A DNA stretch of 50,561 nt, taken from assembly GCA_016235345.1 (NCBI GenBank), contig JACRLG010000033.1, positions 1 through 50,561 on the forward strand, written 5' to 3'. The DNA comes from Deltaproteobacteria bacterium. Its GTDB lineage: Bacteria; Desulfobacterota; Desulfobacteria; Desulfobacterales; Desulfatibacillaceae. The notes under the pieces are model-generated. The model did not search any database. It was not told where the DNA came from and saw only the letters and a list, made by a program, of their open reading frames with translations. Made by a program: the position numbers and the translations under genes. Positions 23,657 to 41,859 of this stretch are shown here, in pieces. The first letter of the stretch is position 1, and each line of letters starts with the position of its first letter.

Positions 23657-23783
23657 TCAGATCTCAGAAGTTAACGCGTTCACTTGAGATTCCGAGTTTG
23701 GATTCTCCATAGGCGCGCAGTGCCCAACCTGTGCCGATCACCCAACCCCGCACTATTTCGATTGAACAATCGCACGGTAGAGC

Positions 23784-24836
23784 CTACTCGCGAACGAAAA
23801 GCACATAATCCCTAAATCCTCTGGTCTGGACGACACGCTCCCTCCTCATGCCTCGTGCGGATAATTGCTCAGCAAATTCCGCACTCCCAACGTCGATTCC
23901 ACCGTCCTCCCAAAGAAGGGCGTTCAGCTTGATGAGCGCAAAGAGGTCACCTGGTTCGCCGCCGTCTATCTTGTCTGCCACGACTAACCAACCTCCTCGT
24001 GGCAGAGACCTACAGCATTTGCCGAGTAGATCGCTCGTCTTCTCACTCGCTGTGCAAACGAAGGATAGTATCACCGCATCGGCCCTTGGCAACTGCAGGG
24101 AGAACATGTCACCACCCATGAACCGCAGGCGGCCTGAGCAGGCTTCGCGGGACAAGAGACGCTCGCCGAGACGGCAAACGGGGGGGGTATCGATACAAAC
24201 TGCTTCAATCAGCGGATACCGGTGTAGCAAAGCCAAGCAGAGTGCACCTGTTCCTCCACCTACATCAAGTACTGTGCCAAACTGCGACCAATCGAAGGCA
24301 TCCGCGAGCGTCGCGCCCTCCGCGAGCGCGAGGCAGTGAAAGGCGAGCTGGTACATCTCGAGCGACGACTCCGAGTGCTCCGCGTTGCCAACGGGTGGAA
24401 CCGGGAACTCTCGCTGCCATTGGGGGAACGATGTGCGGAGCGCATCGGGCAAGTACCTCCAAAGTGGCTCAAAGTACAGCGCAAAGTGCCGAAAGAGGTG
24501 TCCTGCGGATATCTCTTCTTTTAAGCCGAAAGACGCACGCCCCTGCGGCGAGAGACCGAAGATGGTTCCGTTCTTCTCCAGCAAGTTGAGATGAACCCCC
24601 ACGTTCAGCAGATGCTCCAGATGTTCACCGCTACAGTGGCAATGTTCCGCGACTGCCGCGCGCGAAAGAGGGCCCGAACGGAGGGCCGAAAAGATTCCCA
24701 GCTCAAATATAGCGCCCACTGCCCAGAACCGAAGTGGGGCCAGGAGCAGATCTTGGACCTGATGTGGGAGCACTTCATGCTCCAGGGAGCCGCTTGAGGC
24801 CCCTGCGTTTCGCGTCTTCTTGTTGTGCGTTGCCAT
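23784..24836 (-). CDS. SAM-dependent O-methyltransferase
   Basis: 350 residues. The N-terminal half is a winged-helix dimerisation-type domain (FELGIFSALRSGPLSRAAVA; LLEKNGTIFGLSPQGRASFG). The C-terminal half is a class I methyltransferase with motif I DVGGGTG at 191-197, an acidic second motif (VCIDTPPV) and a post-motif LPRGGWLVVADKID. This is the layout of the O-methyltransferase 2 family that acts on small-molecule hydroxyls in natural-product pathways. It is the last gene of the long biosynthetic operon, after a frameshifted DUF6165-like gene, with no visible terminator in the 127 bp downstream. The substrate is unknown. Confidence 0.85.
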   Translation of the reverse strand: MATHNKKTRNAGASSGSLEHEVLPHQVQDLLLAPLRFWAVGAIFELGIFSALRSGPLSRAAVAEHCHCSGEHLEHLLNVGVHLNLLEKNGTIFGLSPQGRASFGLKEEISAGHLFRHFALYFEPLWRYLPDALRTSFPQWQREFPVPPVGNAEHSESSLEMYQLAFHCLALAEGATLADAFDWSQFGTVLDVGGGTGALCLALLHRYPLIEAVCIDTPPVCRLGERLLSREACSGRLRFMGGDMFSLQLPRADAVILSFVCTASEKTSDLLGKCCRSLPRGGWLVVADKIDGGEPGDLFALIKLNALLWEDGGIDVGSAEFAEQLSARGMRRERVVQTRGFRDYVLFVRE

Positions 24837-24947
24837 TGTTTTCCGATCCTACTCTGCGCTCTCGCTTGCACCCTGCGCCGTGAAGTACCTTTTGTCCTCG
24901 TTGCGGAGCGAACCCAGCAACTCGCACACTTTGATGTTCATGGTGCT

Positions 24948-25264
24948 TCATTCACTGTTGAGGCGGTGGACCGAGTGTGTAACATCAATGAACCGTTCTG
25001 CGAAATCGCTATCCGTATCCATGCTTCGGATCTCATCTTCCGCATTCCACAGTGACGTATTGACGCGGTGGAGTCTCGCCCCAGTTCATTCGTGGAACGT
25101 TCATCTCCGACAACAGAACCCCAGACCGCTGACATATCTGCGAGATATCCTTGCGCTCGCTCTGCCGACTTTGGTGCCTTCAGCTCGCGTGCCTTGACTT
25201 CCATTATGGTGATGCGATCGCGTAGCCCATCGGGGCCTATCTCAACGCGGATTGGGCTCGCCAT
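24948..25264 (-). pseudogene. frameshifted DUF6165-like protein
   Basis: From ATG 25262-25264 (AGAGGA upstream; a second ATG is directly before it) the frame reads DRITIMEVKARELKAP, then loses sense. The frame offset by one base continues with VNTSLWNAEDEIRS and RFIDVTHSVHRLNSE up to TGA at 24948-24950. These two halves are the N- and C-terminal signatures of DUF6165 proteins. One extra G in the GGGG run (plus strand CCCC 25079-25082) would restore a protein of about 105 residues. DUF6165 proteins are found near glycosyltransferases, and a GT9 gene lies in the same operon. A sequencing error is as likely as a true pseudogene. Confidence 0.7.
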
Positions 25265-25266
25265 CA

Positions 25267-26445
25267 TTAATCCTCTGTGTTGCAGGGGGCAGCTCGTTCG
25301 CGTCTCTTCGCTCCTACCCCATCCTCGCGTCGCGGCCACGCTCTACCTAAACCGAGCACGATCTCAGAAAACATATAGGAGCGCCAGCACTGACTGGGGT
25401 ACCCACCGCCTTGTGCGCTTGAGGAACTCTCCGAGAGACGCTGGTACAAGCAACCGCCTCGGCATAGGGAGTACCAGAGGCATCCAAGGCAAGCGCCCTT
25501 GAACTTTTCGGATATCGTAGCCAAAGGCCCTGCAGGGAGTTCACGCAACCTTGAAACGAGCTGGTCGTCGTCCACGTTCGCGATCACATAGTTCGGATCG
25601 TCTCCGAACTGATCACACGGAAAGACATCTCCATTCGGCTGAAGCATGATGTGGTTCCAACAAGCTCCTGACATGTGGCAGGCTTCGTTTTCACCTCCAA
25701 GCAATATGTCATCTATGAGCTCGAAGTACTGTATGCGCGGCCGGTTTTCATCGTCGCACTTCCAACGATTGAAAAGCTGTAGGAGTAGTCGCGCATATGG
25801 CATCAGCCATTGACTTCCATCGGGGCTCCTGTTCCATGGTGTCCAGGTCAGCTTGGGCTCCACGTTGATCCGTTCAACGCACAAGGAGCGATAGAACTCG
25901 TAGAGGCGGTCGACATCCAAGCAATCCGGGTCTACCAACGTCGATGTGACCTCGACCGACACGCCTTCCTTACGAAGTATATCCAAAGAGATCATAGCCC
26001 GGGTGTGAGGCGATACGTGGTGCAGACCAGAAGCCCAGCGCCGATGTCGGTCGTTAGCCTCCTGATATGCGTCGATACTCACCCCTACCGAGAATCCTCG
26101 CTCGGCGAAGAAACTGGCCCAGTCGCTATCGATGAGTGTGCCATTGGTATGGAGGCAGTTTTGAAGCAACATCGAGACTCGGCCTGCCTCGGATTCAGCG
26201 GCATCGATGAGTTGCTTCAAACGTTCCCTTCCTGCGAGCGTCGGCTCGCCCCCCTGCCAAGACAACGTGACCTTTTGGCACTCCAATCCGGAGAGCACTC
26301 TGATCAATCGCCCTACCGACCCCGGTTCAAGCCAGCCATGCTGCTGCCGGTTTTTTGGAGATATGTAGCAGTAGTCGCAACTGTAATTGCAGAGCAGTGT
26401 TGGCCGGACAACGACCACAACGGTTTGAAAGACGTTTTCGCTCAC
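25267..26445 (-). CDS. radical SAM/SPASM protein (anSME-like), enzyme D
   Basis: 392 residues. The start is GTG 26443-26445, overlapping the stop of the upstream ligase gene in a GTGA junction. The radical SAM cluster is Cys19, Cys23, Cys26 (CNYSCDYC). Core motifs WQGGEPTLAG and HTNGTL follow. The C-terminal SPASM region has CWNHIMLQPNGDVFPCDQF and then CLGCLWYSLCRGGC, which would bind two auxiliary 4Fe-4S clusters. This is the domain plan of sulfatase-maturing and peptide-modifying enzymes. It is a divergent paralogue of the enzymes at 32133, 38932 and 40068. A basic, disordered tail follows the SPASM domain. Likely substrate is a peptide, by inference. Confidence 0.85.
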   Translation of the reverse strand: MSENVFQTVVVVVRPTLLCNYSCDYCYISPKNRQQHGWLEPGSVGRLIRVLSGLECQKVTLSWQGGEPTLAGRERLKQLIDAAESEAGRVSMLLQNCLHTNGTLIDSDWASFFAERGFSVGVSIDAYQEANDRHRRWASGLHHVSPHTRAMISLDILRKEGVSVEVTSTLVDPDCLDVDRLYEFYRSLCVERINVEPKLTWTPWNRSPDGSQWLMPYARLLLQLFNRWKCDDENRPRIQYFELIDDILLGGENEACHMSGACWNHIMLQPNGDVFPCDQFGDDPNYVIANVDDDQLVSRLRELPAGPLATISEKFKGACLGCLWYSLCRGGCLYQRLSESSSSAQGGGYPSQCWRSYMFSEIVLGLGRAWPRREDGVGAKRRERAAPCNTED

Positions 26446-28130
26446 TGCATCTCTTCCTTCCTATAAACGAAGCAGGTCACCCAGTCCTTCACCGCATCGA
26501 CGCTATGGCCGAGAACAAAAAGCCGCGACCATATCTCGATGTTGAGCGTGGCCCATCGGAGATCGCGTGAGGCAGGTGCATACCGTGCCCAGCTCAGCGC
26601 GGGCTCACGGGAGAGCCCGAACACCACCTCAAATCCACTCCCAAGAATCTCGTCCAATGGCGGCAACCATAACTCAAGCGGGATGTCGAAACCAGACTTG
26701 GGCAGCTCAAGGACCTGAGGCGGGAGTCTCCCCGCAGATAGGTCTCTAACGACAGGTTTTGTTCTTTCCAGCGTCGATAACCGAGGAAGCGACGCCACAC
26801 CGGCCTGTATGACACGCCGTCCCAGATACGGAAAGGCGACCTGTACGCTACCGTACCGTGATGCCGCGTGGAGGCGCAGAAGAGTGAGAGGTAGCGTCTG
26901 GAAGAACTCTGTCATCCAGGCGATGCGCAGTTCTCTCTCCAGTGGATCATTCTCCTCGGATAGGAGCATGCGTAGCCGCGAGGCCAATGCCAGCCGCTCC
27001 GGAAATCCAAAGCCGATTCGCGCGAGGTCGTCGAGACCGCGCAGAAGGAATATTTCTCGCTCCAGATCGCTTCCTGAGACCGATCGTGTCTTAGGCTCGG
27101 AAGGTGCTTCTCTGAGCCGATCGCGGAGTTCGATCAGTCTCGGATATCCGCCAAACAGCTCGTCCGCCCCTTCTCCAGTCAGCATCAGCCGAACGCCTGC
27201 CCTCCCGGCCACTTTGGCAACAAGCGCCAATCCGACATGGTTCGGAAATCCCACGGGCAGCCCAGAATTCACTATGGCGTCAACAAGCCCGGCAAGAAAT
27301 GAACGCCGATCAAGTTGCACTTGAATAAGCTCTAAATTAAGGTGTCGCGCGATTGCAGAAGCGGATACCGATTCGTCAAATTTGTCCTCGCCAACCGCGC
27401 AGGTGAAAGCGGTCACCGGAACATCTCCCTCGCACGCGAGCGCTGCCAGAAGGGTCGAATCGAGACCCCCACTCATGAAAAGTCCGAGCGGACCTTCTCC
27501 ACTCAGACCGCTCAAGGCTTCCCGAATGGCGGTCGCTACTTCCTCCTTTTGAGCCGCTGGCGAGAGGTGGGACCGGGGTTGTGTCAGTATGCCGCCGGTC
27601 CATCTTCCTTCACAGACTGGAATCCTCGAACATAAATCCAATCGCCAAAGCTCGTCGGCTGGAACCATGAATGTGTTCGCGAACGGGAGAGGGCCTCCAA
27701 TCCATCCATCGTAGAAGACGTACTCTCTCAAGGCGCACGGTTCGGCGTCGGGGATCGATCCAAGGCGAAGGAGGACGGGTAGGTCGGCTGCGACCGCCCA
27801 GCCCCAATCAAATGACCGCACGAATACAGGAGAGATGCCAAGGGCATCACGTCGGACCAGAACCGCATCCTTCGCCTCAACATCCAGTCTGGTCGCCCAG
27901 CTCGAGGATCGCTCCAACGCACTCGAAGTCTTAAATGCCCACTCAGGGAGGCCCCATTTTGACTTGTGGATTTCGGGTCCCGGAGGCACTCCCCAGCCGC
28001 CTGAAATCGCCAAGGTCTTTCCAACGGATTGGATGAATGGGCCGTTGTCAACCCAGGCTGGCCAGGATGTATCGAACCTTCGCCGGAGCACAACCGGCGG
28101 CTCTGCGGTAGATGTTTGCACTTCAAGCAT
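26442..28130 (-). CDS. asparagine-synthetase-like ATP-dependent amide ligase
   Basis: 562 residues from the second of two close in-frame ATGs (28130; the other at 28145), overlapping the end of the GT9 gene. The C-terminal domain keeps the ATP pyrophosphatase motif SGGLDS (220-225) and the GEGADELFGGY loop (319-329) that adenylates a carboxylate. The N-terminal glutaminase-like domain is recognisable (RRDALGISPVFV) but has no Cys at position 2, so it cannot release ammonia from glutamine. The same loss is seen in lasso-peptide cyclases and beta-lactam synthetases, which use an amine already in the substrate. An amide- or lactam-forming step on the pathway product is therefore the best guess. 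Confidence 0.8.
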   Translation of the reverse strand: MLEVQTSTAEPPVVLRRRFDTSWPAWVDNGPFIQSVGKTLAISGGWGVPPGPEIHKSKWGLPEWAFKTSSALERSSSWATRLDVEAKDAVLVRRDALGISPVFVRSFDWGWAVAADLPVLLRLGSIPDAEPCALREYVFYDGWIGGPLPFANTFMVPADELWRLDLCSRIPVCEGRWTGGILTQPRSHLSPAAQKEEVATAIREALSGLSGEGPLGLFMSGGLDSTLLAALACEGDVPVTAFTCAVGEDKFDESVSASAIARHLNLELIQVQLDRRSFLAGLVDAIVNSGLPVGFPNHVGLALVAKVAGRAGVRLMLTGEGADELFGGYPRLIELRDRLREAPSEPKTRSVSGSDLEREIFLLRGLDDLARIGFGFPERLALASRLRMLLSEENDPLERELRIAWMTEFFQTLPLTLLRLHAASRYGSVQVAFPYLGRRVIQAGVASLPRLSTLERTKPVVRDLSAGRLPPQVLELPKSGFDIPLELWLPPLDEILGSGFEVVFGLSREPALSWARYAPASRDLRWATLNIEIWSRLFVLGHSVDAVKDWVTCFVYRKEEMQ

Positions 28131-29163
28131 GGCGTTCCATCTCATGTTCAGCGATGTAATCGCAGATAGTTGTTGCTACATCTTCGACTGCAATCCTATT
28201 CATGCACGGCGTGCTTGATGTGCAAGTCATGCGTTGGCACGGATAGCAGTTGGGGTGGTCGGACAGCGATATCGTGGTCCCGCCATCGACAAGGTGGTAA
28301 GGAAACCACTTTGAGGGTTCTGTCGGACCAAAGAGAGTCAGGATTGGTGTTCCGACAGCAAAAGCGAGGTGAGCAAGGGCGCTATCGCAGGTAATCGCGA
28401 TGTCGGCATATGCCAAATTACGCGCAGCCCCGAGCAGAGACGAGTCAAGCAGTATTCGAATGCCCGATGATCGAGCCGCAGTTCGGAGGCAATGTAGGTC
28501 CTCGCTTGGGTCTGCGAGCATTGAAACGGAATATCCGGCTTCGTGAAGTTTGTCTGACAATGAAATCCAACGGCTCAACGGCCAGGACTTGGAGTTTGTA
28601 CTTGCACCAGGACAAAGGCAGATCCCATGGAGGCTTGGAGATTTCCGTCTCTCAACCACACGGGCCATGAGATGTTGACTCGTCTCGAGAATCTTGATGA
28701 TGTCCCGCGGACGACGATCCAGAGTTCGCGCGACAAGTTGCTCGTAGTACTCATGGGCGTATTGAATCTCGGAGTCTGACGAGTACTCTTCCTTTGCTCG
28801 GTCACGAACATTCGATTTTGACTTCCGGGTGAAAACAAAGGTGCTTATCGTCGCTGAGACCGCATCGCTGATTCGATCATGCCGTAGGTCTAACACCTCC
28901 GTGCATCCGAGGAGGGAAACCCACAAAGATAGGCGCGCCGCGTGATATGTCGTTCGCAACCACGAATGGTAGACGGGCGGGCAAGCCAGGCAACTGGCAC
29001 CTCTGAAGATCGCGGCAACGATGGGTGCAGCCTGATCGTTTATAATCAGCGCGATCCGCTCGAATCGTTCACATTCGAATAGAGCGCCGAGAGCTGGCAT
29101 TGCCATTATCGTGTCCCCAATATGATCGGGGCCCACGACGATCAAAGATCTGACGCGTGGCAT
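28123..29163 (-). CDS. glycosyltransferase family 9 (heptosyltransferase-like)
   Basis: 346 residues from ATG 29161-29163, with GGAG five bases upstream. The Rossmann start LIVVGPDHIGDTIMAMPALG, the middle motif CLCPGASTNSKSWPLSRW and the donor-site segment DSALAHLAFAVGTPILTLFGPTEPSKWFP are classic for ADP-heptose transferases. The C-terminal Cys motif (CYPCQRMTC ... CM) is also typical. GT9 enzymes usually build lipopolysaccharide cores, but no LPS gene is nearby, and here the gene is locked into a radical SAM operon by an overlap with the ligase gene. Glycosylation of the operon's product is the simplest reading, by inference. Confidence 0.85.
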   Translation of the reverse strand: MPRVRSLIVVGPDHIGDTIMAMPALGALFECERFERIALIINDQAAPIVAAIFRGASCLACPPVYHSWLRTTYHAARLSLWVSLLGCTEVLDLRHDRISDAVSATISTFVFTRKSKSNVRDRAKEEYSSDSEIQYAHEYYEQLVARTLDRRPRDIIKILETSQHLMARVVERRKSPSLHGICLCPGASTNSKSWPLSRWISLSDKLHEAGYSVSMLADPSEDLHCLRTAARSSGIRILLDSSLLGAARNLAYADIAITCDSALAHLAFAVGTPILTLFGPTEPSKWFPYHLVDGGTTISLSDHPNCYPCQRMTCTSSTPCMNRIAVEDVATTICDYIAEHEMERHA

Positions 29164-29238
29164 AAGAGCTCCATAAAAGAGAAGATTCACGATCTCGACC
29201 CAAACTACTTCTCTATCTGAGAGGATGATTGTATTCGA

Positions 29239-30357: not shown

Positions 30358-30466
30358 CGGGCCCCCCCTTAGCCTGTACCTGTAATCGAATATTGGATTA
30401 CTGTGATTTTTGCCATCCGCATCATTTTTAAAAACCTCGGCTTGATATATACCTCCAAATACTCAA

Positions 30467-31003
30467 TCAATTACCAAATGTCCCTTGGTTGATAATCTTG
30501 AATCGGCCGTCAATCAGTATGTTAACGGTACTAGTCGTTCGGCAACCTTCTGGAATAGACACCAATGCATTAACTGTGTATTTATCTCTTTTATGAAAGG
30601 GCTTGCATATTAAATCCATTTTCTCTAAAGGTTTAGAAAATTCAGGAATCTCAAGGAGCGTGATCGCATGGAGCCGGTCCTTTCCCGTAGCTGTTGCATA
30701 AACTGTTTTATCGCCATTTGTGAAGTCTATACCAAATTTGAAGCTATCATAATTCTTGTTGCTTAGATTTTCGATATCAACAGTAACATTATACAAATCT
30801 TCGTACTCTGCCACTTCTTCATGATAGGTAATTACTACTTTTACGCCTATATCATTGATGGATGGTTTAAATAAAAGTGGAAACGTATCGATATTAGCGG
30901 CAATCCCTTGAGGCCGGTTCAAATATTTCTCATTCAAAATTCCAATAATTGCCGTTGCCAGGGCTGTGGCAAAAATACTAAGGATAAAAGTGATTGTTTC
31001 CAT
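30467..31003 (-). CDS. AT-rich single-pass membrane protein, function unknown
   Basis: 178 residues from ATG 31001-31003 with AAGGAGAC upstream. An N-terminal membrane helix (ITFILSIFATALATAIIGIL) is followed by a beta-rich domain with IDTFPLLF, DLYNVTVDIENLSNKNYDS and CKPFHKRDKYTVNALVSIPE. It resembles the frameshifted gene at 23112-23656, whose product has the same layout. It is much more AT-rich than the operon genes on both sides, so it looks like a later insertion into the biosynthetic cluster. No function is recognised. Confidence 0.65.
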   Translation of the reverse strand: METITFILSIFATALATAIIGILNEKYLNRPQGIAANIDTFPLLFKPSINDIGVKVVITYHEEVAEYEDLYNVTVDIENLSNKNYDSFKFGIDFTNGDKTVYATATGKDRLHAITLLEIPEFSKPLEKMDLICKPFHKRDKYTVNALVSIPEGCRTTSTVNILIDGRFKIINQGTFGN

Positions 31004-31053
31004 TCTCGTCTCCTTATAGTCAGTCATTCGAGTTGATCGGGCAAAGCCGCAAA

Positions 31054-33161: not shown

Positions 33162-33162
33162 C

Positions 33163-36100
33163 TTAACTGCAATCCTCGCCACTTTCCCACCGGAAGTTAA
33201 AGATGTGCGCCCGGCCGTGCTCAGCCGCCCACCAGCAACCGGTTGTACGCCCCTTAGTCATACCTAAAACGCGATCTTCAGTTACCATCAGCTCGTCGGA
33301 GAACGCCAGCCCAAGATCTGAGTAGTCCCTTTCCTTCCGAAGGGATACGTAGGCATTGAATCGTATGCGATTCAAGATGACGTCCCCGTCAAAGGCAAGG
33401 CCTTTGTTTTCATCCCAGCAGACTTGCGGGAGTAACGTGTCGTCCCAGATTACCACCGGCTGAGACAGAGCTTGCTCCATGCTGCGAGCAGCATCAGCTG
33501 AGCATCGCGCAATCTCATTGTGGAGGGTACGCGCCAGCGTGCGCGAATGCCGGCAGCGATAGGAGCACGGGTAGTGTGAAATAAGATAAAATGGCGACGG
33601 TCGGTCGGAAAGGTACCACAGCAGATTGTTCAGCTCCGCGCAACACTGACCGCTCGTCTGCCGGAGACTAACGACTGGCAGATTGGCGGGGCGGCCCCAT
33701 GGGCCGCTTTCCGCGTCCTGCTCTGTCAGCCATCGCACACAGCAATCAGGATACCCAAGTGCGCTGCCGAAGGCTGTCGCCCCCTGGCCCTCCGCTTCTA
33801 CAAGCCTGTCCGCGAGTACCGCAGTCCGTGCGATGTAGGCGTGAATAGGGGCCGCTGCAAGAGCGAGAGATCTTTCGTGCGGTGACAAGTGGGCCAAGCC
33901 GTCTGGGAGGAATTCTCCAAAACGGACGGCGAGACCACTTCGCATCACATGTCTGGCAAGCTTCTCAAGCCGTTTTTGCGACCATCCATAAAGCGTGATT
34001 CGCATGCCCGGCTTGATCCCGGATACAACGCCAAGCCATTCAGGCAACGCACTGTTTGGCAGATCTTCCGGCGCTTCGATAGCTGCGCGAAGGTTCAGAA
34101 ACGGCGTCTCTATGAACAAAGGTCTCTCTTGCATAGGAGTCGACTCAGCGAGGCTAAGGTCTGACCAGAGCACAGCAATTTCCTGTTCAGCGATAAGCTT
34201 ATTACCACCAAACGCCGGCGATAGGCTACGGGAAGCCACCGAAAGTGTGTTGCCATTCCGCCAAGCATGGACCGCGGCCCAGGCTTCATCCGAAAGAAGC
34301 GAAACACTCCGAGATCTCCCATCAACAACCAGCGGCAAAGGAGACCCTGATCGAGAGATATCTCCCATCGAGTCGGTCACGTCGTGCCACATGTGCGCCA
34401 GTTCTACGTCAATTGGCTGACTATGCTGCAACGATGTTGCATCACCTCTGCGGATACCATTATCATCGCCAAGAGCAAGCGTCATCTCGCGAGAATACCT
34501 CTCAAGGTAGAGCAGAAGCTGAGAGCGTTCGAGCCGATGCCAGAGAGGTGCACCCGACAGGCCCGAGAGGATGTTGCGATTGAATGACGTACACTCCACG
34601 TTGGCTTCGGCAACGGTCATTCCGTAGCTCGGGACGTATGGATGAACGAGGGACCAGAGGTCTGCGTCCCCCATGGTGATGCGGAATGCCGCAGGATTGG
34701 CGGCCATAATGGATTTACGCATCAGCTTGAACTGCGACGCTCCAACCGAGTGAAGGCGTTTCCTGTTGCGTTCCAAAAATGCGATTGTCTCTGCAACGTC
34801 TTCCTGTGTCTCTCCAGGGAAGCCGAACATTATGAAACCATGATTCCAGATACCGGCATTGCCGGCCTGGCTTAGGGAAGCCTCAACGGACGCCACGACC
34901 GTTCCCTTGCGCATCGCATCGAGCACCTTTTGACTTCCTGACTCGATCCCGAACTGCGCGAGGCGAAGGCCGGCGTGAGCGAATGCACTCCAGTCCTCGG
35001 GGTGTATGTTGGCCTCTCCGCGGAAGCTCGCCGCGATGGAAAGTTGAAGGTCACCGCCGCTGAGCTGTGTCGAGAGCCCGCGAATTGCAGCCACTGGAAG
35101 TGCTTCATCTGCAAATGCGAAGCAGGTGGTTCCATGTAGTCGCTGCAGTGTTTTCATCTCCGCCACAACGTCGGCGGGGGACCGGGCGGAACGGTGAGAC
35201 GAATAGGCCGCACTGTGATCACAGAAAGCGCATCGATGATAGCAACCCCGGGCAAGCATCACCGGAAGAACGGGTTTGGGAGTAAAGTATCGCGACAGGC
35301 ACAGCCCCGAGAAAACGGGGGCAGGAAGCCTTCGAAAGGGCGTGTGACCGCGGGCTGGGCTCCTTTGAATTTTGCCGTCGGTCAAGTATGCGATCGAGCC
35401 CTCAACGTCGTTGACGGGCTTATTACGCGAGATGCGGTCCGCCATCTCAACGATTGCGTCCTCGCCTTCACCTGTCACGATGATGTCGCAGTAATCTTGA
35501 AGTGAGCCTTCCGGCGTAGCAAGGATATCCGCAAGCCTGGTCGGAACGCCACCGCCGAGAACCACCGTGGCGGTACAGTCCGACTCGCGCAGCATACGAC
35601 ACAGCGTAAGAGCAGCGACCCACTGCGTCTCTGCCGCGATCGAAATGCCGATCAGGCGAGGGTTGAGATCGCGAACCAGAGGGATTGTGTGGCGGGTGAA
35701 GAAGTCTCGGTATGGGTTTGTAAAGTCATCCTGCGTGATCTCGGCAAGGCCCTCTCGTGTGGCTGGATTTCCAATCGAATGAAAAGACACAAAGTCCAAA
35801 CGCGAAGGGAAGAACGCTCTTCCAACCAGACCATATGCGGTCGAGATGCAATCGGTGGCCCACGTAAAGATACGAGGATCAAAAAACTCCTCAGAACTTA
35901 GTACCTTGGCAGCATGGTCGATCTCTGCTCGAAGCCTTTGGGCAACAGCGGCCCCTACGACCATGTTACGAAGACGGGCATTTTCCGTCGAGCTGATTGT
36001 GGATTTCTCTTCAAGGCGATCGATTTGGCTCCGGATTCGCAAGTCGAGTGCTTCAACGCCGTCGGAGGAAAAGAGCCATCGGTGGAAATCCAGATTGGCA

Positions 36101-36228
36101 TCCAAGAGTGTCGCATCGTGGCCAGCCGCAGCAAGCGCGCCATGCAAGCAAGGCAGCGCAAGGTGAGGCATGGTGAATGCCCAATGCGGCGGAAACAGCA
36201 GCAGAATGTCCCTCGTGCATGCAGTCAT
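33163..36228 (-). CDS. B12-binding radical SAM protein fused to a DUF483-like C-terminal domain
   Basis: 1021 residues; ATG 36226-36228 overlaps the GNAT stop as ATGA. Domains in order: cobalamin-binding-like Rossmann part (about 1-300, with LIGISIAAETQW and VVLGGGVPTR), radical SAM core with Cys329, Cys333, Cys336 (GCYHRCAFC) and GFPGETQEDV, a central region of unknown fold (about 560-800), and a Cys-rich domain with GYPDCC (825-830) and HYPCSYRC (about 885-892) shared with the next-but-one gene. B12 radical SAM enzymes methylate unreactive carbons or rearrange rings. At this length it exceeds the usual 450-650 residues, mostly by the C-terminal extension. I know of no named family with this architecture. 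Confidence 0.85.
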   Translation of the reverse strand: MTACTRDILLLFPPHWAFTMPHLALPCLHGALAAAGHDATLLDANLDFHRWLFSSDGVEALDLRIRSQIDRLEEKSTISSTENARLRNMVVGAAVAQRLRAEIDHAAKVLSSEEFFDPRIFTWATDCISTAYGLVGRAFFPSRLDFVSFHSIGNPATREGLAEITQDDFTNPYRDFFTRHTIPLVRDLNPRLIGISIAAETQWVAALTLCRMLRESDCTATVVLGGGVPTRLADILATPEGSLQDYCDIIVTGEGEDAIVEMADRISRNKPVNDVEGSIAYLTDGKIQRSPARGHTPFRRLPAPVFSGLCLSRYFTPKPVLPVMLARGCYHRCAFCDHSAAYSSHRSARSPADVVAEMKTLQRLHGTTCFAFADEALPVAAIRGLSTQLSGGDLQLSIAASFRGEANIHPEDWSAFAHAGLRLAQFGIESGSQKVLDAMRKGTVVASVEASLSQAGNAGIWNHGFIMFGFPGETQEDVAETIAFLERNRKRLHSVGASQFKLMRKSIMAANPAAFRITMGDADLWSLVHPYVPSYGMTVAEANVECTSFNRNILSGLSGAPLWHRLERSQLLLYLERYSREMTLALGDDNGIRRGDATSLQHSQPIDVELAHMWHDVTDSMGDISRSGSPLPLVVDGRSRSVSLLSDEAWAAVHAWRNGNTLSVASRSLSPAFGGNKLIAEQEIAVLWSDLSLAESTPMQERPLFIETPFLNLRAAIEAPEDLPNSALPEWLGVVSGIKPGMRITLYGWSQKRLEKLARHVMRSGLAVRFGEFLPDGLAHLSPHERSLALAAAPIHAYIARTAVLADRLVEAEGQGATAFGSALGYPDCCVRWLTEQDAESGPWGRPANLPVVSLRQTSGQCCAELNNLLWYLSDRPSPFYLISHYPCSYRCRHSRTLARTLHNEIARCSADAARSMEQALSQPVVIWDDTLLPQVCWDENKGLAFDGDVILNRIRFNAYVSLRKERDYSDLGLAFSDELMVTEDRVLGMTKGRTTGCWWAAEHGRAHIFNFRWESGEDCS

Positions 36229-36848
36229 GAGCGGGCCTTCTTTACTACAGCCCGTTCAATTGCTCTGCTGCGGAACTCGGAGACCCAGCGCTGTCTGTTT
36301 AGGGCGAGGACTTCGACATCAAAGCGCTCCCCGGCAATGCGTCGGTGCTGCCTGAATCGCGCCTCTCTTTCAAATCCCAGGCACGTCGCGACCTCGATAG
36401 CGGCTATGTTTTCAGATAGTATCTCCACGTAGAGCTTGTGCAGGCTCCACGAGTGGAATGCCCACTCTATTGAAAGCACGCTGGCAGCATGTCCAGAACC
36501 ACGCCCGACGTGACTGGGAAGTAGCGCAATGGTGTAGTAGGCCCATCCATTGATTGGTTCAAAGCTATATAGGTATGCCAGACCAATTGGCTCGCATGGG
36601 CCTTTGTTCGAGGCAATGGACTCCACGATGAAGAAGGTGCGCGAATGTGCCTTTTGCTTGAATACATCGACGAATTGCATTTCGACAGTTTCTATTTGTC
36701 CGTCGTCCCACAAGTGTAGAGTTTCAAAGGACGTGCTCAGATCGAACAGGAAAGGCAGATCGGCATCTCGAACGGCACGGAGACGAATTCCGCCGATTTC
36801 AAGCAGAGGCATTGCAATTTTCGACGCCTGTGGTTCTGTCAATGTCAT
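36225..36848 (-). CDS. GNAT acetyltransferase (RimJ/RimL type)
   Basis: 207 residues from ATG 36846-36848, which shares a base with the upstream TAA (TAATG). The GNAT fold is clear: IRLRAVRDADLPFLFDL at the N-terminus, ALLPSHVGRGSGHAASVLSI as the acetyl-CoA-binding loop (with a Val-Gly-Arg-Gly-Ser-Gly variant), and NIAAIEVATCLGFEREARFR as the C-terminal beta-strand/helix. RimL-type enzymes acetylate amino groups of proteins, amino acids or drugs. In the operon it could cap an amine made by the aminotransferase encoded directly upstream, by inference. Confidence 0.85.
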   Translation of the reverse strand: MTLTEPQASKIAMPLLEIGGIRLRAVRDADLPFLFDLSTSFETLHLWDDGQIETVEMQFVDVFKQKAHSRTFFIVESIASNKGPCEPIGLAYLYSFEPINGWAYYTIALLPSHVGRGSGHAASVLSIEWAFHSWSLHKLYVEILSENIAAIEVATCLGFEREARFRQHRRIAGERFDVEVLALNRQRWVSEFRSRAIERAVVKKARS

Positions 36849-38935
36849 TATTCTTCCCGTAATGTCCGTACGAGGATATCCCTGATTGCCGCCCAATCAT
36901 CGCTGCAAATCGTGAGCGGCGGGCTGAGGGCAATCGTCGCCCCAAGAACTTCGTGGATCACCCCGTTCTGTGTTAGCGATCGCGAGAACCTTTGAATGGG
37001 ATGTGGTCCGCCGCCTCCAGGGGTGCGGAGCTCAACTCCAATCCAAAGTCCTGTGCTTCGCACGTCGGCGACGTGTGGTAATTGTCGAAGCGCATTGGCG
37101 GTGTGAGACTGGAATTCAGATGCACGAGCATTGACGCTTGATATCACATCAAGTTGGTTGAGTGCATCGAGTACGCGACATGCAGCTGCGGCAGCGAGGG
37201 GATGACCTGAGTAGGTGTGGCCGTGTCTAAGCGACGAAGATTGAGCAGTGATTACGTCGAAAACAAGGTCGCTTGCAACTGTCGCAGACAGCGGGATGGT
37301 CCCGTTGGTCAGAGCCTTCCCGCATACGACAATGTCTGGTTCCTGCTGAGCTCGAGTGAAGTCAAACCACCGACCGGTACGCCCTAGGCCAGAAGCTACC
37401 TCATCGGCAATTGCCAGAGCACCTGCATCCCGTGCTGCCTCGAGAAGGCCACGGAGGAACCGTGGTGGTAGTGGTCGCACGCCGCCGAGCCCCTGAGTCG
37501 GCTCGAAGATAATGCTTGCAAAACTGTTCGGGTCTGCGAGCTCAAGAGCATGGTCGAGGCGAACAAGGGCTTCCTCCACTGCCGAAGGCTCTCCACTTAT
37601 TGGGGGCTCGATAAAAATGACGCCTTCCGGCAGAGGTCCAGCCCCGGACCGACTCGCCGCGTGTCCAGTGACCGAAAGAGCGCCCGCTGTTGCGCCGTGA
37701 TAGCCCCCCGAAAGCGATAGTACCCGGTATCTGTGCCCCTCCCCCCGACAACGATGGTACTCTCTTGACATTCGTAAAGCGGTTTCGACAGCTTCGGACC
37801 CACCGCTGTTGGCAAACACGTGGCGAAGCGTGCCTGGAAACAATCGCGCGAGCCTTTCGGAGAACGAGACCAGAGCCTCGTTTGTATAGCCGTCGGCTGG
37901 CCAATGGGCAAGTCGGCTATTTTGTTCTACAAGGAATGGAAAAATAGCCGGGTGTCCATGTCCGAGGCAGACGTTCTTCGTGCCCGCAATGCCGTCGAAG
38001 TAGCATCGCCCAAGCGCATCCCACACGCGAACCCCAAATGCACGTTCTACAACTCGCGGTGAAAAAGGATCGTCGGGGTTGGGGCACGAGAAGGGATGAA
38101 ACACGGTTTTGCGACTGTCGCTGAGGAGCGCCTTCTCGGCATCCCTATTAATGCTCGCGTCAGCCCTGGTGGCACCGGCCACGCCAACCACGGGTGCTGC
38201 AAGACGATCGACAAGAGTCTCGACGAACTGGCCAATGGCAGGGGGAAGACCGCACTCGCGTGCGGCCGCATGGTCCTTCGCGGCATTCTGGTCGGCGTCA
38301 TCGCTCGGTACACGCAAAGAGAGCCATGCCCGGTTCCGGAGTTCTGCGACTTGCGCAACGGCCGCTGTTTCCATGTCCACGCCGACGGCCGAGAACAGCC
38401 GGGAAAGCTGGCGGCCATCATCCCCATCATGGAGCGGCCCCTCTGCGCTTATAACCATCCCTTCCCGAAGCGGCAACCGGCATGTCTCGGCCGTTGAAAG
38501 GGCAAGCCGCTTGATCTCCTCAGACAGAGACCACGTGCGCACATGATTGGCGTCAATTTGTCCCGGTCGGAGCAGCGCCCCTGCCGACGCGTAATTGGCG
38601 GTCTTAGAAACGAGCAGGACAACGTCGCGAGAAATCGCATCGCTGATCCGCCCCATGAAGCCAACGGCCACCAGCAGCCCGACCTGATGTGTGTCAAGCA
38701 AGTGTGATGCAGCCGCAGCGGCGGCGACCATGCCCGGGCCCATGATGCAGACCAGGTAAGGTCTGCCTGCCGAGGTCTCCACGATTCGGCAGGACTTATC
38801 GGGGCAGGCAAAAAGTGCTTTGTGATACCTTATCTGCGCCGGGAGTTCGGCTTCTTCCGAGCAGCAAAGGGCCACTAATCGTCCGTGGCATTCGTCGAAT
38901 GTCTGCAGCACCAAGTGCTGGATCATGGTGTTCAT
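36848..38935 (-). CDS. nucleosidase (MTAN-like) fused to class III aminotransferase
   Basis: 695 residues; ATG 38933-38935 overlaps the upstream stop as ATGA. The first about 240 residues are a 5'-methylthioadenosine/S-adenosylhomocysteine nucleosidase-like domain: VDMETAAVAQV (Glu189) and SDDAD (Asp212) match the substrate-binding and catalytic parts of MTAN. From about 265 the chain is a PLP-dependent class III aminotransferase with DGIAGTKNVCLGHGHP, the Asp511 of ADEVASGLGRTG that holds the PLP ring, and Lys540 in CGKALTNG for the Schiff base. MTAN also cleaves 5'-deoxyadenosine, the inhibitory by-product of radical SAM enzymes, six of which are encoded beside it. If the aminotransferase uses SAM as donor, as BioA does, the nucleosidase could also clear its by-product. 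I know of no named fusion of this kind. Confidence 0.85.
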   Translation of the reverse strand: MNTMIQHLVLQTFDECHGRLVALCCSEEAELPAQIRYHKALFACPDKSCRIVETSAGRPYLVCIMGPGMVAAAAAASHLLDTHQVGLLVAVGFMGRISDAISRDVVLLVSKTANYASAGALLRPGQIDANHVRTWSLSEEIKRLALSTAETCRLPLREGMVISAEGPLHDGDDGRQLSRLFSAVGVDMETAAVAQVAELRNRAWLSLRVPSDDADQNAAKDHAAARECGLPPAIGQFVETLVDRLAAPVVGVAGATRADASINRDAEKALLSDSRKTVFHPFSCPNPDDPFSPRVVERAFGVRVWDALGRCYFDGIAGTKNVCLGHGHPAIFPFLVEQNSRLAHWPADGYTNEALVSFSERLARLFPGTLRHVFANSGGSEAVETALRMSREYHRCRGEGHRYRVLSLSGGYHGATAGALSVTGHAASRSGAGPLPEGVIFIEPPISGEPSAVEEALVRLDHALELADPNSFASIIFEPTQGLGGVRPLPPRFLRGLLEAARDAGALAIADEVASGLGRTGRWFDFTRAQQEPDIVVCGKALTNGTIPLSATVASDLVFDVITAQSSSLRHGHTYSGHPLAAAAACRVLDALNQLDVISSVNARASEFQSHTANALRQLPHVADVRSTGLWIGVELRTPGGGGPHPIQRFSRSLTQNGVIHEVLGATIALSPPLTICSDDWAAIRDILVRTLREE

Positions 38936-40071
38936 TGCGTGTCCCTAATCGAATTGAACACGGGCAAACGCACCAATCCATCCGCCCCGGCGGCGTCCAG
39001 ATCCGATGCGATCAGTCGGGCGAGGTGTCTGCGCGTCTCGCAAAATGGATACCGACGCGCAAACATCCCATCGCCCGAGTAACGCTCTGATGGGCAACCG
39101 CCGTTACAGATTGGCAGTATCTCACAGATCTCACAGGCAGGCGAAAGCCGCGCGATGTCGTTCCGAAAAGTGAGGTACCGCCTCCCGGCGAGCAATGCGC
39201 TGAGGTTCTGGTCCTGTAGGTTCCCCAATTTTAACTCTGGTGCCCGCATAAACGAGTCGCATGGGTACACGCTGCCGTCGAAATCGATCGAGATGTACGC
39301 CCCGCATCGGCCCGAAAAGGTGCATAGAGTAGGGTGGTAGCCCGTTACCCCACGAATCATGTTCTCAATGTAGCGTATAGAGATGCGGTCCTCGCCAAGC
39401 TTCGCCCACTCCATATAAACGTCACTTATAAACCTTCCGAACTCAGCGGCGCGAATCAGGTAAGAGTTGCCTTGGAGCTTCGGTGATAGGACCGCCATCG
39501 GAAGGAAATCCACAGAGTCCGCTCGAAGTGCAGAGAAGAAGGAGACTATTTCGCGTGCTGCTCCGAGGCTTCGTCGAGTGACCACTGCTGAGAGGCTGAC
39601 GCGTAGTCCTGCGGTCGTCATGCGCTCAAGCGCACTTAACGCACGACCGTGGCTGGGCCGTCCTCCTGTCAGCGGGCGCTGCTCATCGTGAATCCAAGCG
39701 GGACCATCCAAGCTGAGTCCAACTCCGATATCAAACGATCGAAATAGCTCAATCCAATCGTCGTCGACAAGGACCCCGTTGGTCTGGAGACTATGAAGGT
39801 ACTCGAGTCCTTGCTTTTCATACCTCTTCTGTAGGGAGAAGACCTGCCGGAAAAAGGGAATGCCCGCTATCAGTGGCTCCCCTCCATGCCACACTATCTG
39901 AACCTTAGCTAAGCCCGACGCCACAGCCCACCGATAGACCTCTTCCACTACGTCCAAGGAGATGGTGTTCGGGCTCCCCTCTGCGGCATTGTCCTCGTAG
40001 CAGTAGCGACAGGCTGCGTTGCATGAGTCAGTTGTCTTCAAGATAATTGTGGTCGGCAGATCTGCCCTCAT
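38932..40071 (-). CDS. radical SAM/SPASM protein (anSME-like), enzyme B
   Basis: 379 residues. ATG 40069-40071 overlaps the upstream stop as ATGA. The cluster Cys17, Cys21, Cys24 (CNAACRYC), VWHGGEPLIAG, LQTNGVLVD and GLSLDGPAWIHDEQR define the core. The SPASM region carries CGAYISIDFDGSVYPCDSF and CEICEILPICNGGCPSE, enough for two auxiliary clusters. It is the closest partner of the enzyme encoded immediately upstream, and the two are probably tandem duplicates specialised for different positions of one peptide. The C-terminal tail after the SPASM domain is unremarkable. Confidence 0.87.
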   Translation of the reverse strand: MRADLPTTIILKTTDSCNAACRYCYEDNAAEGSPNTISLDVVEEVYRWAVASGLAKVQIVWHGGEPLIAGIPFFRQVFSLQKRYEKQGLEYLHSLQTNGVLVDDDWIELFRSFDIGVGLSLDGPAWIHDEQRPLTGGRPSHGRALSALERMTTAGLRVSLSAVVTRRSLGAAREIVSFFSALRADSVDFLPMAVLSPKLQGNSYLIRAAEFGRFISDVYMEWAKLGEDRISIRYIENMIRGVTGYHPTLCTFSGRCGAYISIDFDGSVYPCDSFMRAPELKLGNLQDQNLSALLAGRRYLTFRNDIARLSPACEICEILPICNGGCPSERYSGDGMFARRYPFCETRRHLARLIASDLDAAGADGLVRLPVFNSIRDTQ

Positions 40072-41231
40072 GACCTTCCCCTCAGAGCAGTCAGCGCGGT
40101 CAAAGACAGATCTGCATTAGCTGCCATGAACTCCTCTATATGTCGGAAGATGGATTTTCGCGCTCCGCAAAAATAGTATCGTCCAAAGGAGTTGGGTTTT
40201 TGACCAATCCGATGCGCAGCGCATCCTCCGCCGCACGAGGCAAGCCAATTGCACTCACTGCATCCCTCCGGCAAAGCAGCAATACGCGATCGAATTGCTC
40301 TGGCGCGGGGAGAACGGAGAATTATCGACAGAGGCTCCGATCGCAAGTCGCCCAAGCACATGTCTTGCTGGCCCAGAAACAGATCACAGGGGTAGAGGCG
40401 CCCCTCCGTATCGACACTATAAAAATGATGGCAGTTGTGGCGGAAAGCACACGTTGTTGGTTTGACGCCCAATAAGCCCCCCAAGATATCCTCGAGCATC
40501 CGGCATGTCGGCGGGTCAGGATGGCGAATCCATTCGTCGAAGTACTCCTTGACAAACCGTGCAAGAGAACGAGGACTAATGCTAGGAGGTGCAACTTCAC
40601 CCCCGGGGCCTCGACAGAAGCATGGAAGCAGATCGACCGCGAGCTGCTCGTTGGTGATGAAATCGAAAACCTCTTTCGCCGCCGCCGCCATATCCTCGGT
40701 GATCACCAGAAGTGTGCCAAACGGCAGGTCGATTTCTCTCAGTTTGGCTGCGTTTGCCATAACTTCTTCATGGCACGAAGAAGAGTCGTCAGCCATGCTC
40801 TTACGATGGCGATTGTGAAAACGGGCGGGGCCATCAAGGCTAATCCCTATGTCAATGGGATGCTCGCGGAGTAATGATAGCCATTCATCGGGGACGTGCT
40901 TTCCGTTTGTCTGTACCTTATTTGTGGCCGAAGCACGACCGTCCGCCTTCAGCCGTTGTTGGGTTCGCAGGGCGCTCCACAAAACTGCTGGATCACAAAG
41001 CAAAGGCTCACCACCATGCCAATTGAAATCGACTCGCTTGACCGGCAAAGATAGAAACTGTTCACATACAAGTGAAGCGGTCTTCGCTGCCATAAACGAG
41101 GCCGTGCTTCCTAACCTATTCGAAGTCCTAGCATAACAGTAAGTACATGCCAAGTTGCAACGGGCAGAGATGCGTACCACTACTGTTATATTGTCAGGAA
41201 GCACGGCCTCTTTTATAGGGTCTGCTTGCAT
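40068..41231 (-). CDS. radical SAM/SPASM protein (anSME-like), enzyme A
   Basis: 387 residues. ATG 41229-41231 is preceded by GGAGGGGG; a TTG four codons earlier is inside that ribosome-binding site and is rejected. The cluster Cys25, Cys29, Cys32 (CNLACTYC), NWHGGEPLL, KVQTNGKHV and GISLDGPARFHNRHR form the core. CHHFYSVDTEGRLYPCDLF and CSECNWLASCGGGCAAH form the SPASM part. The first maturase gene after the small putative precursor gene, 186 bp away. It starts the run of overlapping genes that reaches 33163, so its strong ribosome-binding site may set the translation of the whole block. Confidence 0.88.
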   Translation of the reverse strand: MQADPIKEAVLPDNITVVVRISARCNLACTYCYARTSNRLGSTASFMAAKTASLVCEQFLSLPVKRVDFNWHGGEPLLCDPAVLWSALRTQQRLKADGRASATNKVQTNGKHVPDEWLSLLREHPIDIGISLDGPARFHNRHRKSMADDSSSCHEEVMANAAKLREIDLPFGTLLVITEDMAAAAKEVFDFITNEQLAVDLLPCFCRGPGGEVAPPSISPRSLARFVKEYFDEWIRHPDPPTCRMLEDILGGLLGVKPTTCAFRHNCHHFYSVDTEGRLYPCDLFLGQQDMCLGDLRSEPLSIILRSPRARAIRSRIAALPEGCSECNWLASCGGGCAAHRIGQKPNSFGRYYFCGARKSIFRHIEEFMAANADLSLTALTALRGRS

Positions 41232-41368
41232 CGCCCCCTCCAAAACTCTGGACCTTGATCAGAACACGGCGCCCCGCGCACGCACATGCTTTGATCAAAG
41301 AAGCGGGCCTGTGCAATTTCAGTGCATTTATCCTCCTCGAACAACACCTGCGACTTGAAATGGGACAT
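41213..41368 (-). CDS. possible small Cys-containing peptide (very tentative)
   Basis: A 51-residue frame starts at ATG 41366-41368 and contains Cys15, Cys29, Cys35 and Cys47 (MCVRGAPCSDQG in the middle). It overlaps the start of enzyme A in another frame. No Shine-Dalgarno sequence precedes the ATG, although a GAGGAGG lies inside the frame at about 41332-41338. It may be a second small product of the operon or simply a chance frame. Confidence 0.2.
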   Translation of the reverse strand: MSHFKSQVLFEEDKCTEIAQARFFDQSMCVRGAPCSDQGPEFWRGRCKQTL

Positions 41369-41416
41369 CCCGGTCATGCGGGAATGGCACGCCCCCCGCT
41401 CTTTCTGATCAAGCCA

Positions 41417-41611
41417 TCATCTCATCGAGCTGCGGCTATGGGCGTTCCAGTTTTGGGCCCACATCACGGTCTCTGCATCCTCCGCATCAGCCTTACGGAT
41501 GATGCGAGCTATAACGCGAGCACCCGGTTTATCGCTCGTCTCAAGATTTTCGATTAGGTTTTCGCGCTCGTTGATGGACTGCTCATTTCGAAGTGCCCCT
41601 GCTTTCTGCAT
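41417..41611 (-). CDS. putative RiPP precursor peptide
   Basis: 64 residues. ATG 41609-41611 has a perfect AAGGAGG seven bases upstream, the best site in the window. The N-terminal part is charged and Glu/Asn-rich (MQKAGALRNEQSINEREN), with a likely amphipathic leader helix to about residue 48. The C-terminus reads VMWAQNWNAHSRSSMR, with Trp51, Trp55 and His58 in a polar setting. Aromatic residues in polar tails are usual targets of SPASM radical SAM cyclophane or ether formation, and NWN recalls the darobactin core, though the rest differs. It is the first gene after the promoter and precedes four SPASM enzymes. No family is recognised; the precursor role is inferred from size, position and composition. 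Confidence 0.55.
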   Translation of the reverse strand: MQKAGALRNEQSINERENLIENLETSDKPGARVIARIIRKADAEDAETVMWAQNWNAHSRSSMR

Positions 41612-41829: not shown

Positions 41830-41859
41830 ATTATATGGCATAATCCATACTGAAGTCAA
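41830..41859 (-). promoter_or_regulatory. sigma70-type promoter of the radical SAM operon
   Basis: On the minus strand TTGACT (41859-41854), an 18-bp spacer and a perfect TATAAT (41835-41830) lie in an AT-rich patch upstream of the small precursor gene. No other good promoter was seen before the first gene of the operon. Confidence 0.75.

Follow-up and report, generated by a model that had tools for sequence, protein, structure and literature searches.

What does a cluster with as many as six radical SAM enzymes make? We addressed this question for a gene cluster within a 50,561-nucleotide stretch of DNA (here the window) from a Deltaproteobacteria bacterium (assembly GCA_016235345.1, contig JACRLG010000033.1, positions 1 to 50,561). 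The original prediction, made from sequence alone, was that positions 23784-41611 hold an 18-kb multi-radical-SAM operon for an undescribed RiPP-type pathway, with a small peptide gene at its head. Our analysis indicates that the cluster carries a small peptide gene whose tail is nearly identical in the one relative found so far, together with radical enzymes that probably remodel that tail, in a combination that we could not match to a described peptide pathway.

Gene content of the cluster

The predicted arrangement of genes is borne out by the sequence. All 15 genes are open at the expected places on the minus strand, and six encode proteins with a radical SAM domain (PF04055), each of which carries the CxxxCxxC motif. 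In the list below, paired values are bit scores against the curated cut-off, and percentages are identities to the orthologue in the relative, whose two stretches are called L021 and L025.

41830..41859 (-), sigma-70-like promoter TTGACT-18-TATAAT, suggestive only
41417..41611 (-), putative precursor peptide of 64 aa, leader ...PGARVIARIIRKADAEDAETVM, predicted core WAQNWNAHSRSS(MR); orthologue at L021 4615-4803
40068..41243 (-), SPASM radical SAM enzyme 1 (PF04055, PF13186); best NCBIfam model TIGR03942 215.1/349.45, DynA 189.1/450; 70.5% to L021
38932..40071 (-), SPASM radical SAM enzyme 2 (PF04055, PF13186); TIGR03942 257.6/349.45, DynA 199.6/450, DarW 186.3/650; 71.7%
36848..38935 (-), nucleosidase (MTA/SAH type, PF01048, PNP_UDP_1) fused to a class III aminotransferase (PF00202, Aminotran_3); 75.7%
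36225..36896 (-), GNAT acetyltransferase (PF13302); 70.9%
33163..36228 (-), B12-binding radical SAM protein (PF02310, PF04055) with a C-terminal DUF483-like domain; TIGR03975 RiPP C-methyltransferase 127.6/281.85; 69.4%
32133..33182 (-), SPASM radical SAM enzyme 3 (PF04055, PF13186); TIGR03942 187.8/349.45; 62.6% to L025
31054..32235 (-), DUF483-like Cys-rich protein (PF04467); 58.4%
30467..31027 (-), 186-aa protein of unknown family, hydrophobic N-terminus by eye, GC 0.37, no Pfam or NCBIfam hit; 42.7% to L025
29239..30357 (-), radical SAM enzyme 4 (PF04055, PF13186), nearest the tungsten-cofactor/PqqE type; TIGR04317 105.7/380, PqqE 50.8/381.35; 78.5% to L025, the best conserved gene
28123..29190 (-), GT9 glycosyltransferase (PF01075), membership uncertain
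26442..28145 (-), asparagine-synthetase-like protein (PF00733, Asn_synthase) without a glutaminase hit, membership uncertain
25267..26445 (-), SPASM-like radical SAM enzyme 5 (PF04055), SPASM score 20.7, just under the 21.5 cut-off; TIGR03942 184.6/349.45; membership uncertain
24938..25339 (-), DUF6165-like gene, frame apparently broken
23784..24836 (-), O-methyltransferase (PF00891, Methyltransf_2), membership uncertain

Several details of the original prediction require correction. The genes were said to be joined mostly by short start-stop overlaps. When the longest ORFs are used, 9 of 14 junctions do overlap, but only 4 of 14 are exact 4-base overlaps, and the other 5 are gaps of 173, 26, 109, 48 and 101 bases, so that transcription as a single unit is not shown. 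The promoter matches 11 of 12 consensus bases and is the one such site found, but shuffled DNA yields 1.0 such site on average. The DUF6165-like ORF has no Pfam hit at E<=0.01, and its recognizable halves, read by eye, lie in two frames. Moreover, the 186-aa protein, which is conserved in the relative, had been left out. A search of the 5′ region for riboswitches gave one Rfam match attributed to chance, at 15.5 bits against a cut-off of 50.

The protein at 31054, predicted to be a Cys-rich partner, exceeds the PF04467 (DUF483) gathering score of 25 when searched as a protein (25.7), but scores 23.4 in a six-frame search. The C-terminus of the 33163 protein scores only 15.1 against the same model, although blastp aligns it with the DUF483 protein at E=3e-8. 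The motifs G-P-CC and PC...C are invariant in 8 aligned sequences. In the 4 of 261 genomes of the order with a DUF483-like match, including that of the window, the match lies near radical SAM genes. In one genome (G017), a DUF483-like gene lies near a YhhB-type maturase that passes its cut-off (471.3/445). The DUF483 profile has no match among solved structures, and structure predictions for the C-terminal half of the 33163 protein and for the 31054 protein were unusable (mean pLDDT 30 and 32).

A relative with the same gene order and a conserved peptide

Whether the genes occur together elsewhere, alongside a small conserved peptide, had been named in advance as the point on which the proposal could fail. 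A scan of 84,980 species genomes with six exact 8-residue patterns found one relative, a MAG titled Chlorobiaceae. The peptide and nine further genes occur there in the same order on MAG contigs C29 and C18, with one extra B12 radical SAM gene between. These contigs share an exact 34-base end, consistent with their being adjacent. The shared block runs from the peptide to the radical SAM gene at 29239 and includes five radical SAM enzymes. The proposal of an undescribed RiPP-type pathway with a small peptide passes this test.

The peptide of the relative is 67.7% identical to that of the window (42 of 62 residues; pS 0.55, pN 0.18), and the tail is W[A/S]QNWNAHSRSS in both. There are 20 amino acid changes against 29.8 expected (P = 5e-5), and base changes by codon position number 14/8/26. 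Conservation stops at the ribosome site/ATG and after the last core codon, and the flanks are no more alike than shuffled DNA. Conservation is confined to the open frame and biased to silent changes, so the peptide is real. The leader is well conserved from PGARV onward, and the greater conservation of the core (11 of 12 identical) relative to the leader (31 of 50) is not significant on its own (Fisher P = 0.08). The dN/dS values are 0.10-0.17 for enzymes 1-4, the nucleosidase-aminotransferase fusion, GNAT and the B12 enzyme, 0.20 for the DUF483 protein, 0.21 for the peptide and 0.36 for the 186-aa protein, although these are rough because dS is near or above 1 throughout. Enzymes 1, 2 and 3 are only 28-30% alike within the window, yet each is 63-72% identical to its own orthologue, indicating that they have distinct, kept roles.

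The last part of the cluster finds no such confirmation. The genes from 29190 down to 23784 are not seen in the relative, whose contig ends 376 bases after the 29239 gene without a GT9 frame. A search of its assembly, run without a positive control, gives no AsnS-like match at E<=1e-5, and the 25267 enzyme finds only 23-27% matches there (3 matches). Among 241 genomes of the class, a search with the 25267 enzyme at E<=1e-45 returned 1, the window's own.

Other searches returned no further locus. The peptide has no hit over a cut-off in family libraries, only weak chance hits at E 0.05-0.2, and the MAG's copy finds none in plasmids at E<=1. Among 297 genomes of the phylum, 9 have a peptide match at E<=0.05: the window's own at 1.2e-42, and 8 at 0.0014-0.042, of which seven are inside open frames of 171-824 aa and one runs across a stop, and which we take as chance. 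For the nucleosidase-aminotransferase fusion, 388 of 395 phylum genomes have a match at E<=1e-30, but apart from the window none of the matches examined starts before residue 146, and the next best score is 209.5 against 1567.4. Among 198 relatives of the MAG, the B12 fusion finds only itself at E<=1e-80. Relatives of the B12 enzyme occur in 17 plasmid records, with unrelated annotated surroundings in the three examined, and enzyme 1 has no match in viral contigs. A search of the MAG for rpoB, intended to compare the lineages, found nothing. Thus, transfer between distant lineages rests on the title of the MAG and on the absence of marker genes in near relatives of the window.

No enzyme passes a RiPP equivalog cut-off among the best 25 models listed for each protein, and the models that are passed are the general SPASM and radical SAM domains. 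Scores also fall below the cut-offs for the triceptide maturase models (YhhB, FxsB, XyeB and GrrM) and for the daptide aminotransferase (NF041821, 235.1 against 450). A PqqD-type or RRE recognition domain, present in about half of known prokaryotic RiPP classes (PMC11002830), gave no Pfam hit. A two-strand, three-helix stretch precedes the DUF483 domain of the 33163 protein, but in a model whose pLDDT is near 40 there. As originally noted, no transporter or peptidase is recognized among the cluster genes scanned. This does not count against a RiPP, because the darobactin leader is cut by host proteases, and a cluster IV daropeptide locus lacks the transporters and has a putative N-acetyltransferase (PMC9055067).

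A putative RiPP pathway with its own precursor family

The original interpretation is supported only in part. An undescribed RiPP-type pathway with a small peptide remains the most likely explanation, whereas a single 18-kb unit and a perhaps glycosylated and methylated product are not supported. What the analysis establishes is a real, conserved peptide gene at the head of a conserved gene block with five radical SAM enzymes shared by both known loci. In these two loci the general RiPP criterion of a conserved ribosomal precursor peptide next to modifying enzymes is fulfilled. The chemistry, the product, its function and transcription as one unit are inferred or remain unproven.

We hypothesize, with moderate confidence, that the three conserved anSME/DynA-like SPASM enzymes (1, 2 and 3) join aromatic side chains of the core (the two Trp, the His) to nearby residues, for example Trp(i)-Asn(i+3) or His(i)-Arg(i+2), each enzyme acting on its own site. 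Related enzymes form such cross-links, namely dynobactin Trp(i)-Asn(i+3) and the YhhB His-Arg link in a three-residue cyclophane (PMC11002830). In this view, the B12 enzyme would C-methylate, enzyme 4 would make a further radical step, the aminotransferase would put an amine on a carbonyl made on the way, and GNAT would cap an amine. The fused nucleosidase would remove 5′-deoxyadenosine, MTA or SAH, which would inhibit so many SAM enzymes; 5′-deoxyadenosine does inhibit radical SAM enzymes (PMC8102628). This domain aligns with solved MTA/SAH nucleosidases and keeps the catalytic ME and SD motifs, and the PLP lysine stretch of the aminotransferase is aligned as well. SAM as amino donor, as in BioA, remains possible, given that bioA is the best NCBIfam model (284.8/405) and a fused MTA nucleosidase would fit, but the nearest solved structures are general class III transaminases and the BioA entries rank lower. 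The DUF483-like proteins would be accessory, binding either metal or the peptide, and leader removal would be by host proteases. The block would have spread by horizontal transfer, and the genes from 29190 to 23784 may be strain-specific tailoring or an unrelated neighbor. This model rests on only two loci, one of them in a MAG.

A more far-reaching version is possible but tentative. Three SPASM enzymes might each install a different cross-link on one short W-x-Q-N-W-N-A-H-S-R core, which is then C-methylated, oxidized and transaminated by an enzyme with a built-in nucleosidase that clears SAM by-products, while DUF483-like proteins are a so far unrecognized family of radical-SAM RiPP partners. 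If so, this would be a new RiPP class.

A small precursor with a nearly invariant tail served by five or six radical SAM enzymes would be one of the densest radical-chemistry peptide pathways known. It offers a substrate for several unknown cross-links, a natural fusion of a SAM by-product nucleosidase with an aminotransferase, and a possible first functional setting for DUF483, for which a full-text literature search, judged by titles and the beginnings of abstracts, found no paper on RiPPs.

Alternative explanations

It is doubtful, though compatible with our model, that all 15 genes form one pathway and that the product is also glycosylated, amide-linked and O-methylated. The last genes share the strand, are closely spaced, include one 4-base overlap and encode a further SPASM-like enzyme. 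However, the relative shows neither an AsnS-like match nor a close fifth enzyme, and the DUF6165-like gene looks broken. Because the MAG is incomplete, this absence is weak evidence.

It is unlikely that the peptide is a scaffold for a small redox cofactor or other small molecule, as in PQQ or mycofactocin, in which the Trp/His part is remodeled, cut out and further aminated, acylated and methylated. In favor of this view, no transporter was found by reading and scanning inside the block in either locus (an EamA-like ORF, identified by eye, lies outside it in L021 at 2249-2662), the best-conserved protein is enzyme 4, which resembles W_rSAM/PqqE-type maturases, and aminotransferase and GNAT are unusual for cross-linked peptides. 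However, the PqqE, MftC and tungsten-cofactor models are all far below cut-off for enzyme 4 (50.8/381.35, 33.4/265 and 105.7/380), no PqqD hit was obtained, a 12-residue conserved tail is longer than a cofactor needs, and no dehydrogenase partner occurs among the cluster genes scanned.

Still less likely is that the enzymes make a non-peptide small molecule and that the small protein is a regulator or an unrelated short gene. Aminotransferase, GNAT, GT9, AsnS-like and methyltransferase genes are common in small-molecule clusters, but the peptide heads the block in both loci with its tail conserved, 173/194 bases from the first maturase, and after sulfatase maturase the nearest models of enzymes 1-3 are peptide maturases.

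Finally, we consider it very improbable that enzymes 1-3 and 5 are ordinary anaerobic sulfatase maturases, because although TIGR03942 is the top model for all four, and the solved anSME 4k37 aligns with residues 7-347 of the 379 of enzyme 2 at 2.7e-40, all four score below the curated cut-off, are divergent copies in one stretch with a conserved peptide, and have no sulfatase among the cluster genes scanned.

Comparison with known peptide pathways

A literature search on SynChlorMet, a similar cassette, returned no papers. Among the closest known systems are the daropeptides and dynobactin (DarE, DynA/DynE), which share SPASM maturases near the DynA and DarW models, a Trp-rich C-terminal core with W..N spacing, no dedicated peptidase and, in the cluster IV locus, the absence of a transporter and the presence of GNAT. 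The window differs in having three or more maturases, a B12 enzyme, an aminotransferase-nucleosidase and DUF483, and its best scores are far below the DarE (150.7/650) and DynA (199.6/450) cut-offs. Its core, WAQNWNAHSRSS, is not of the WNWxKxF type (PMC9055067). It is also not the dynobactin sequence.

Triceptides and the FxsB-YhhB cyclophane peptides share aromatic-to-neighbor cross-linking by SPASM enzymes (PMC11002830), here only inferred, and the proximity of a DUF483-like gene to a YhhB-type enzyme in G017, but enzymes 1, 2, 3 and 5 of the window score 88.6-155.0 against the YhhB cut-off of 445. The RiPP B12 radical SAM C-methyltransferases (TIGR03975) share the B12-binding plus radical SAM layout and are the best model for the 33163 protein, which nevertheless scores well below their cut-off and carries a fused DUF483-like domain. 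Similarly, the PQQ and mycofactocin pathways remodel a short peptide by radical SAM chemistry without an exporter, whereas the cluster described here has no PqqD hit, model scores far below cut-off, and a much larger enzyme set.

Gene content and paralogy of the cluster

The minus strand of the window carries, from 41611 down to 23784, a 64-codon ORF and fourteen larger genes. Specifically, Pfam finds a radical SAM domain in six of these genes, and all six products contain the CxxxCxxC motif. The gene arrangement of the original prediction is present. The four anSME-like proteins (enzymes 1, 2, 3, and 5) are only 22-30% alike, as expected for old paralogues rather than recent duplicates. The 36848 protein is a phosphorylase-superfamily nucleosidase fused to a class III aminotransferase. 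The 33163 protein is a B12-binding radical SAM enzyme whose C-terminus resembles the separate 31054 protein (blastp E=3e-8), which itself is a DUF483 member by a narrow margin (25.7 against a cut-off of 25). Only 4 of 14 junctions are exact 4-base overlaps, whereas 5 of 14 are gaps of 26-173 bases, and the promoter is a good consensus match of a kind that chance supplies in equal number. Thus, the proposal that these genes form one transcript remains unproven. The reading of the region as a single undescribed RiPP-type pathway is partly supported. Features in and around the cluster, and at the related locus described below, include the following:

41611-29239 (-), block from the peptide gene to enzyme 4 that is shared with the relative
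29190-23784 (-), genes of uncertain membership
30467-31027 (-), gene for the 186-aa protein, low GC (0.37) in surroundings of about 0.55
24938-25339 (-), DUF6165-like gene with its C-terminal half in another frame, a broken gene or a sequence error
23104-23660 (+), a relative of the 30467 protein as judged by inspection, convergent with the methyltransferase gene, its halves in two reading frames and so probably a decayed copy
19825-21012, protein-kinase-like gene, low GC (0.33 for 20001-21000) in the same surroundings of about 0.55
17041-19680 (+), tandem pair of radical SAM proteins, 55% identical to each other, nearest the HpnJ model but far below its cut-off
42353-49118 (-), type I restriction-modification set (R, S, M), with an AbiJ-like protein at 45409-46143, directly upstream of the cluster
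L021 (the peptide-bearing locus of the relative) 142-2175, type IIG methylase, and 2827-3921, Fic gene, on the same side
L025 (the second locus of the relative) 81-1379, B12-binding radical SAM protein between the B12 fusion and enzyme 3, which the window lacks

The peptide is conserved in a relative

No model in the family libraries searched recognizes the peptide. A scan of 84,980 species genomes, made with the B12 enzyme and six exact 8-residue patterns and therefore blind to distant relatives, yielded one relative: contig CAJAJL010000029.1 of a MAG titled uncultured Chlorobiaceae bacterium, in which the B12 enzyme is 69% identical over its full length. Upstream of this gene lie, in the order observed in the window, the peptide, enzyme 1, enzyme 2, the nucleosidase-aminotransferase, and the GNAT protein. 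The contig stops just after the B12 enzyme, but another contig of the same genome begins with the identical 34 bases and carries the additional B12 radical SAM gene, enzyme 3, the DUF483 protein, a protein of the 186-aa type, and enzyme 4. Amino acid identities are 67.7% (peptide), 70.5% (enzyme 1), 71.7% (enzyme 2), 75.7% (nucleosidase-aminotransferase fusion), 70.9% (GNAT), 69.4% (B12 enzyme), 62.6% (enzyme 3), 58.4% (DUF483 protein), 42.7% (186-aa protein), and 78.5% (enzyme 4).

In the peptide gene, 48 of 186 bases differ between the two loci, distributed as 14/8/26 by codon position. These differences give 20 amino acid changes where random placement gives 29.8 (P=5e-5), while 150 bases on either side align no better than shuffled DNA. 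The tail W[A/S]QNWNAHSRSS differs at one residue, and its excess conservation over the leader is suggestive but not significant (P=0.08).

Boundary of the shared block

The shared block runs from the peptide to enzyme 4. Beyond this point, the MAG gives no AsnS-like match at E<=1e-5, although this search lacked a positive control and its empty result by itself shows nothing, and only three matches of 23-27% identity to enzyme 5. After enzyme 4 the contig of the relative runs on for 376 bases, with a frame that we read as a transposase start and no GT9 frame, and then ends. In the window, the DUF6165-like gene is split over two frames. We therefore treat the genes at 23784-29190 as being of uncertain membership. 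Incompleteness of the MAG tempers the comparison: rpoB was not found in it either.

Rarity and possible horizontal transfer

The DUF483 protein was absent from the eight same-genus or same-family genomes examined and, at E<=1e-3, matched 3 of 194 relatives including the genome of the window itself. Enzyme 5 matched only the window's own genome among 241 class genomes at E<=1e-45. Similarly, the peptide had no credible match in the other 296 of 297 phylum genomes, and the B12 enzyme had none at E<=1e-80 in the other 197 of 198 relatives of the MAG. A single distant carrier with proteins that are about 70% identical, together with absence from near relatives, points to horizontal transfer, although this remains an inference. 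Both loci lie beside restriction-modification genes, as genomic islands often do.

DUF483-like proteins near radical SAM genes

A profile built from eight DUF483-like sequences matched 4 of 261 order genomes at E<=1e-5, namely that of the window and three others designated G017, G121, and G138. In all four, the gene lies near radical SAM genes. The three additional gene groups are as follows:

L007 (G017, contig C56) 7716-10959, DUF483-like gene three genes from a maturase that passes the YhhB cyclophane model (471.3 against 445), with a peptide-arginase-like gene (30.6 against a cut-off of 350) and a GNAT-like gene, the latter judged by inspection, between
L006 (G138, contig C82) 405-11459, two DUF483 genes, an FxsB-like maturase (361.1 against 370), and further radical SAM genes, with a 913-aa HD/radical SAM fusion
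L047 (G121, contig C1) 6644-10164, DUF483-like gene with two radical SAM genes and, in front, a 71-aa ORF without a family hit

The counter-example is genome G200 in the phylum sample, where 2 of 395 genomes matched PF04467, the other being that of the window. In G200, none of the translated neighbors within about 9 kb reads as radical SAM. Because the profile was built partly from G017, G138, and G200, only G121 is a find independent of it, whereas G017 and G138 had been recovered with the 31054 protein of the window alone. The invariant residues of the aligned sequences are G-P-CC and PC...C, from which we infer possible metal binding.

Proposed mechanism

The conserved peptide, the conserved enzyme block, and the retention of motifs in the nucleosidase and radical SAM domains are established by the sequence comparisons, whereas the chemistry is inferred. 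We hypothesize that enzymes 1-3 install cross-links, based on their nearest models after sulfatase maturase (DynA, DarW, YhhB, and others, all below cut-off) and on spacings known in dynobactin and YhhB products (PMC11002830). C-methylation by the B12 enzyme is likewise inferred, from TIGR03975 as its best model. Finally, the nucleosidase could remove by-products, a role supported in principle by the inhibition of radical SAM enzymes by 5'-deoxyadenosine (PMC8102628). Work on darobactin shows that missing protease and transporter genes are no obstacle to this type of pathway (PMC9055067).

Relationship to known radical SAM RiPP pathways

A literature search found no paper that brings together a radical SAM RiPP pathway, a precursor peptide, an aminotransferase, and a nucleosidase, and none that contains the core string WNAHS with radical SAM, although most subscription literature lay outside its reach and a wider search on multi-radical-SAM clusters did return papers that matched in part. 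No enzyme of the cluster passes a RiPP equivalog cut-off among the best 25 models listed for each. We place this system among the radical SAM RiPP pathways, with its own precursor family. A new class is possible, but such an assignment would depend on the product.
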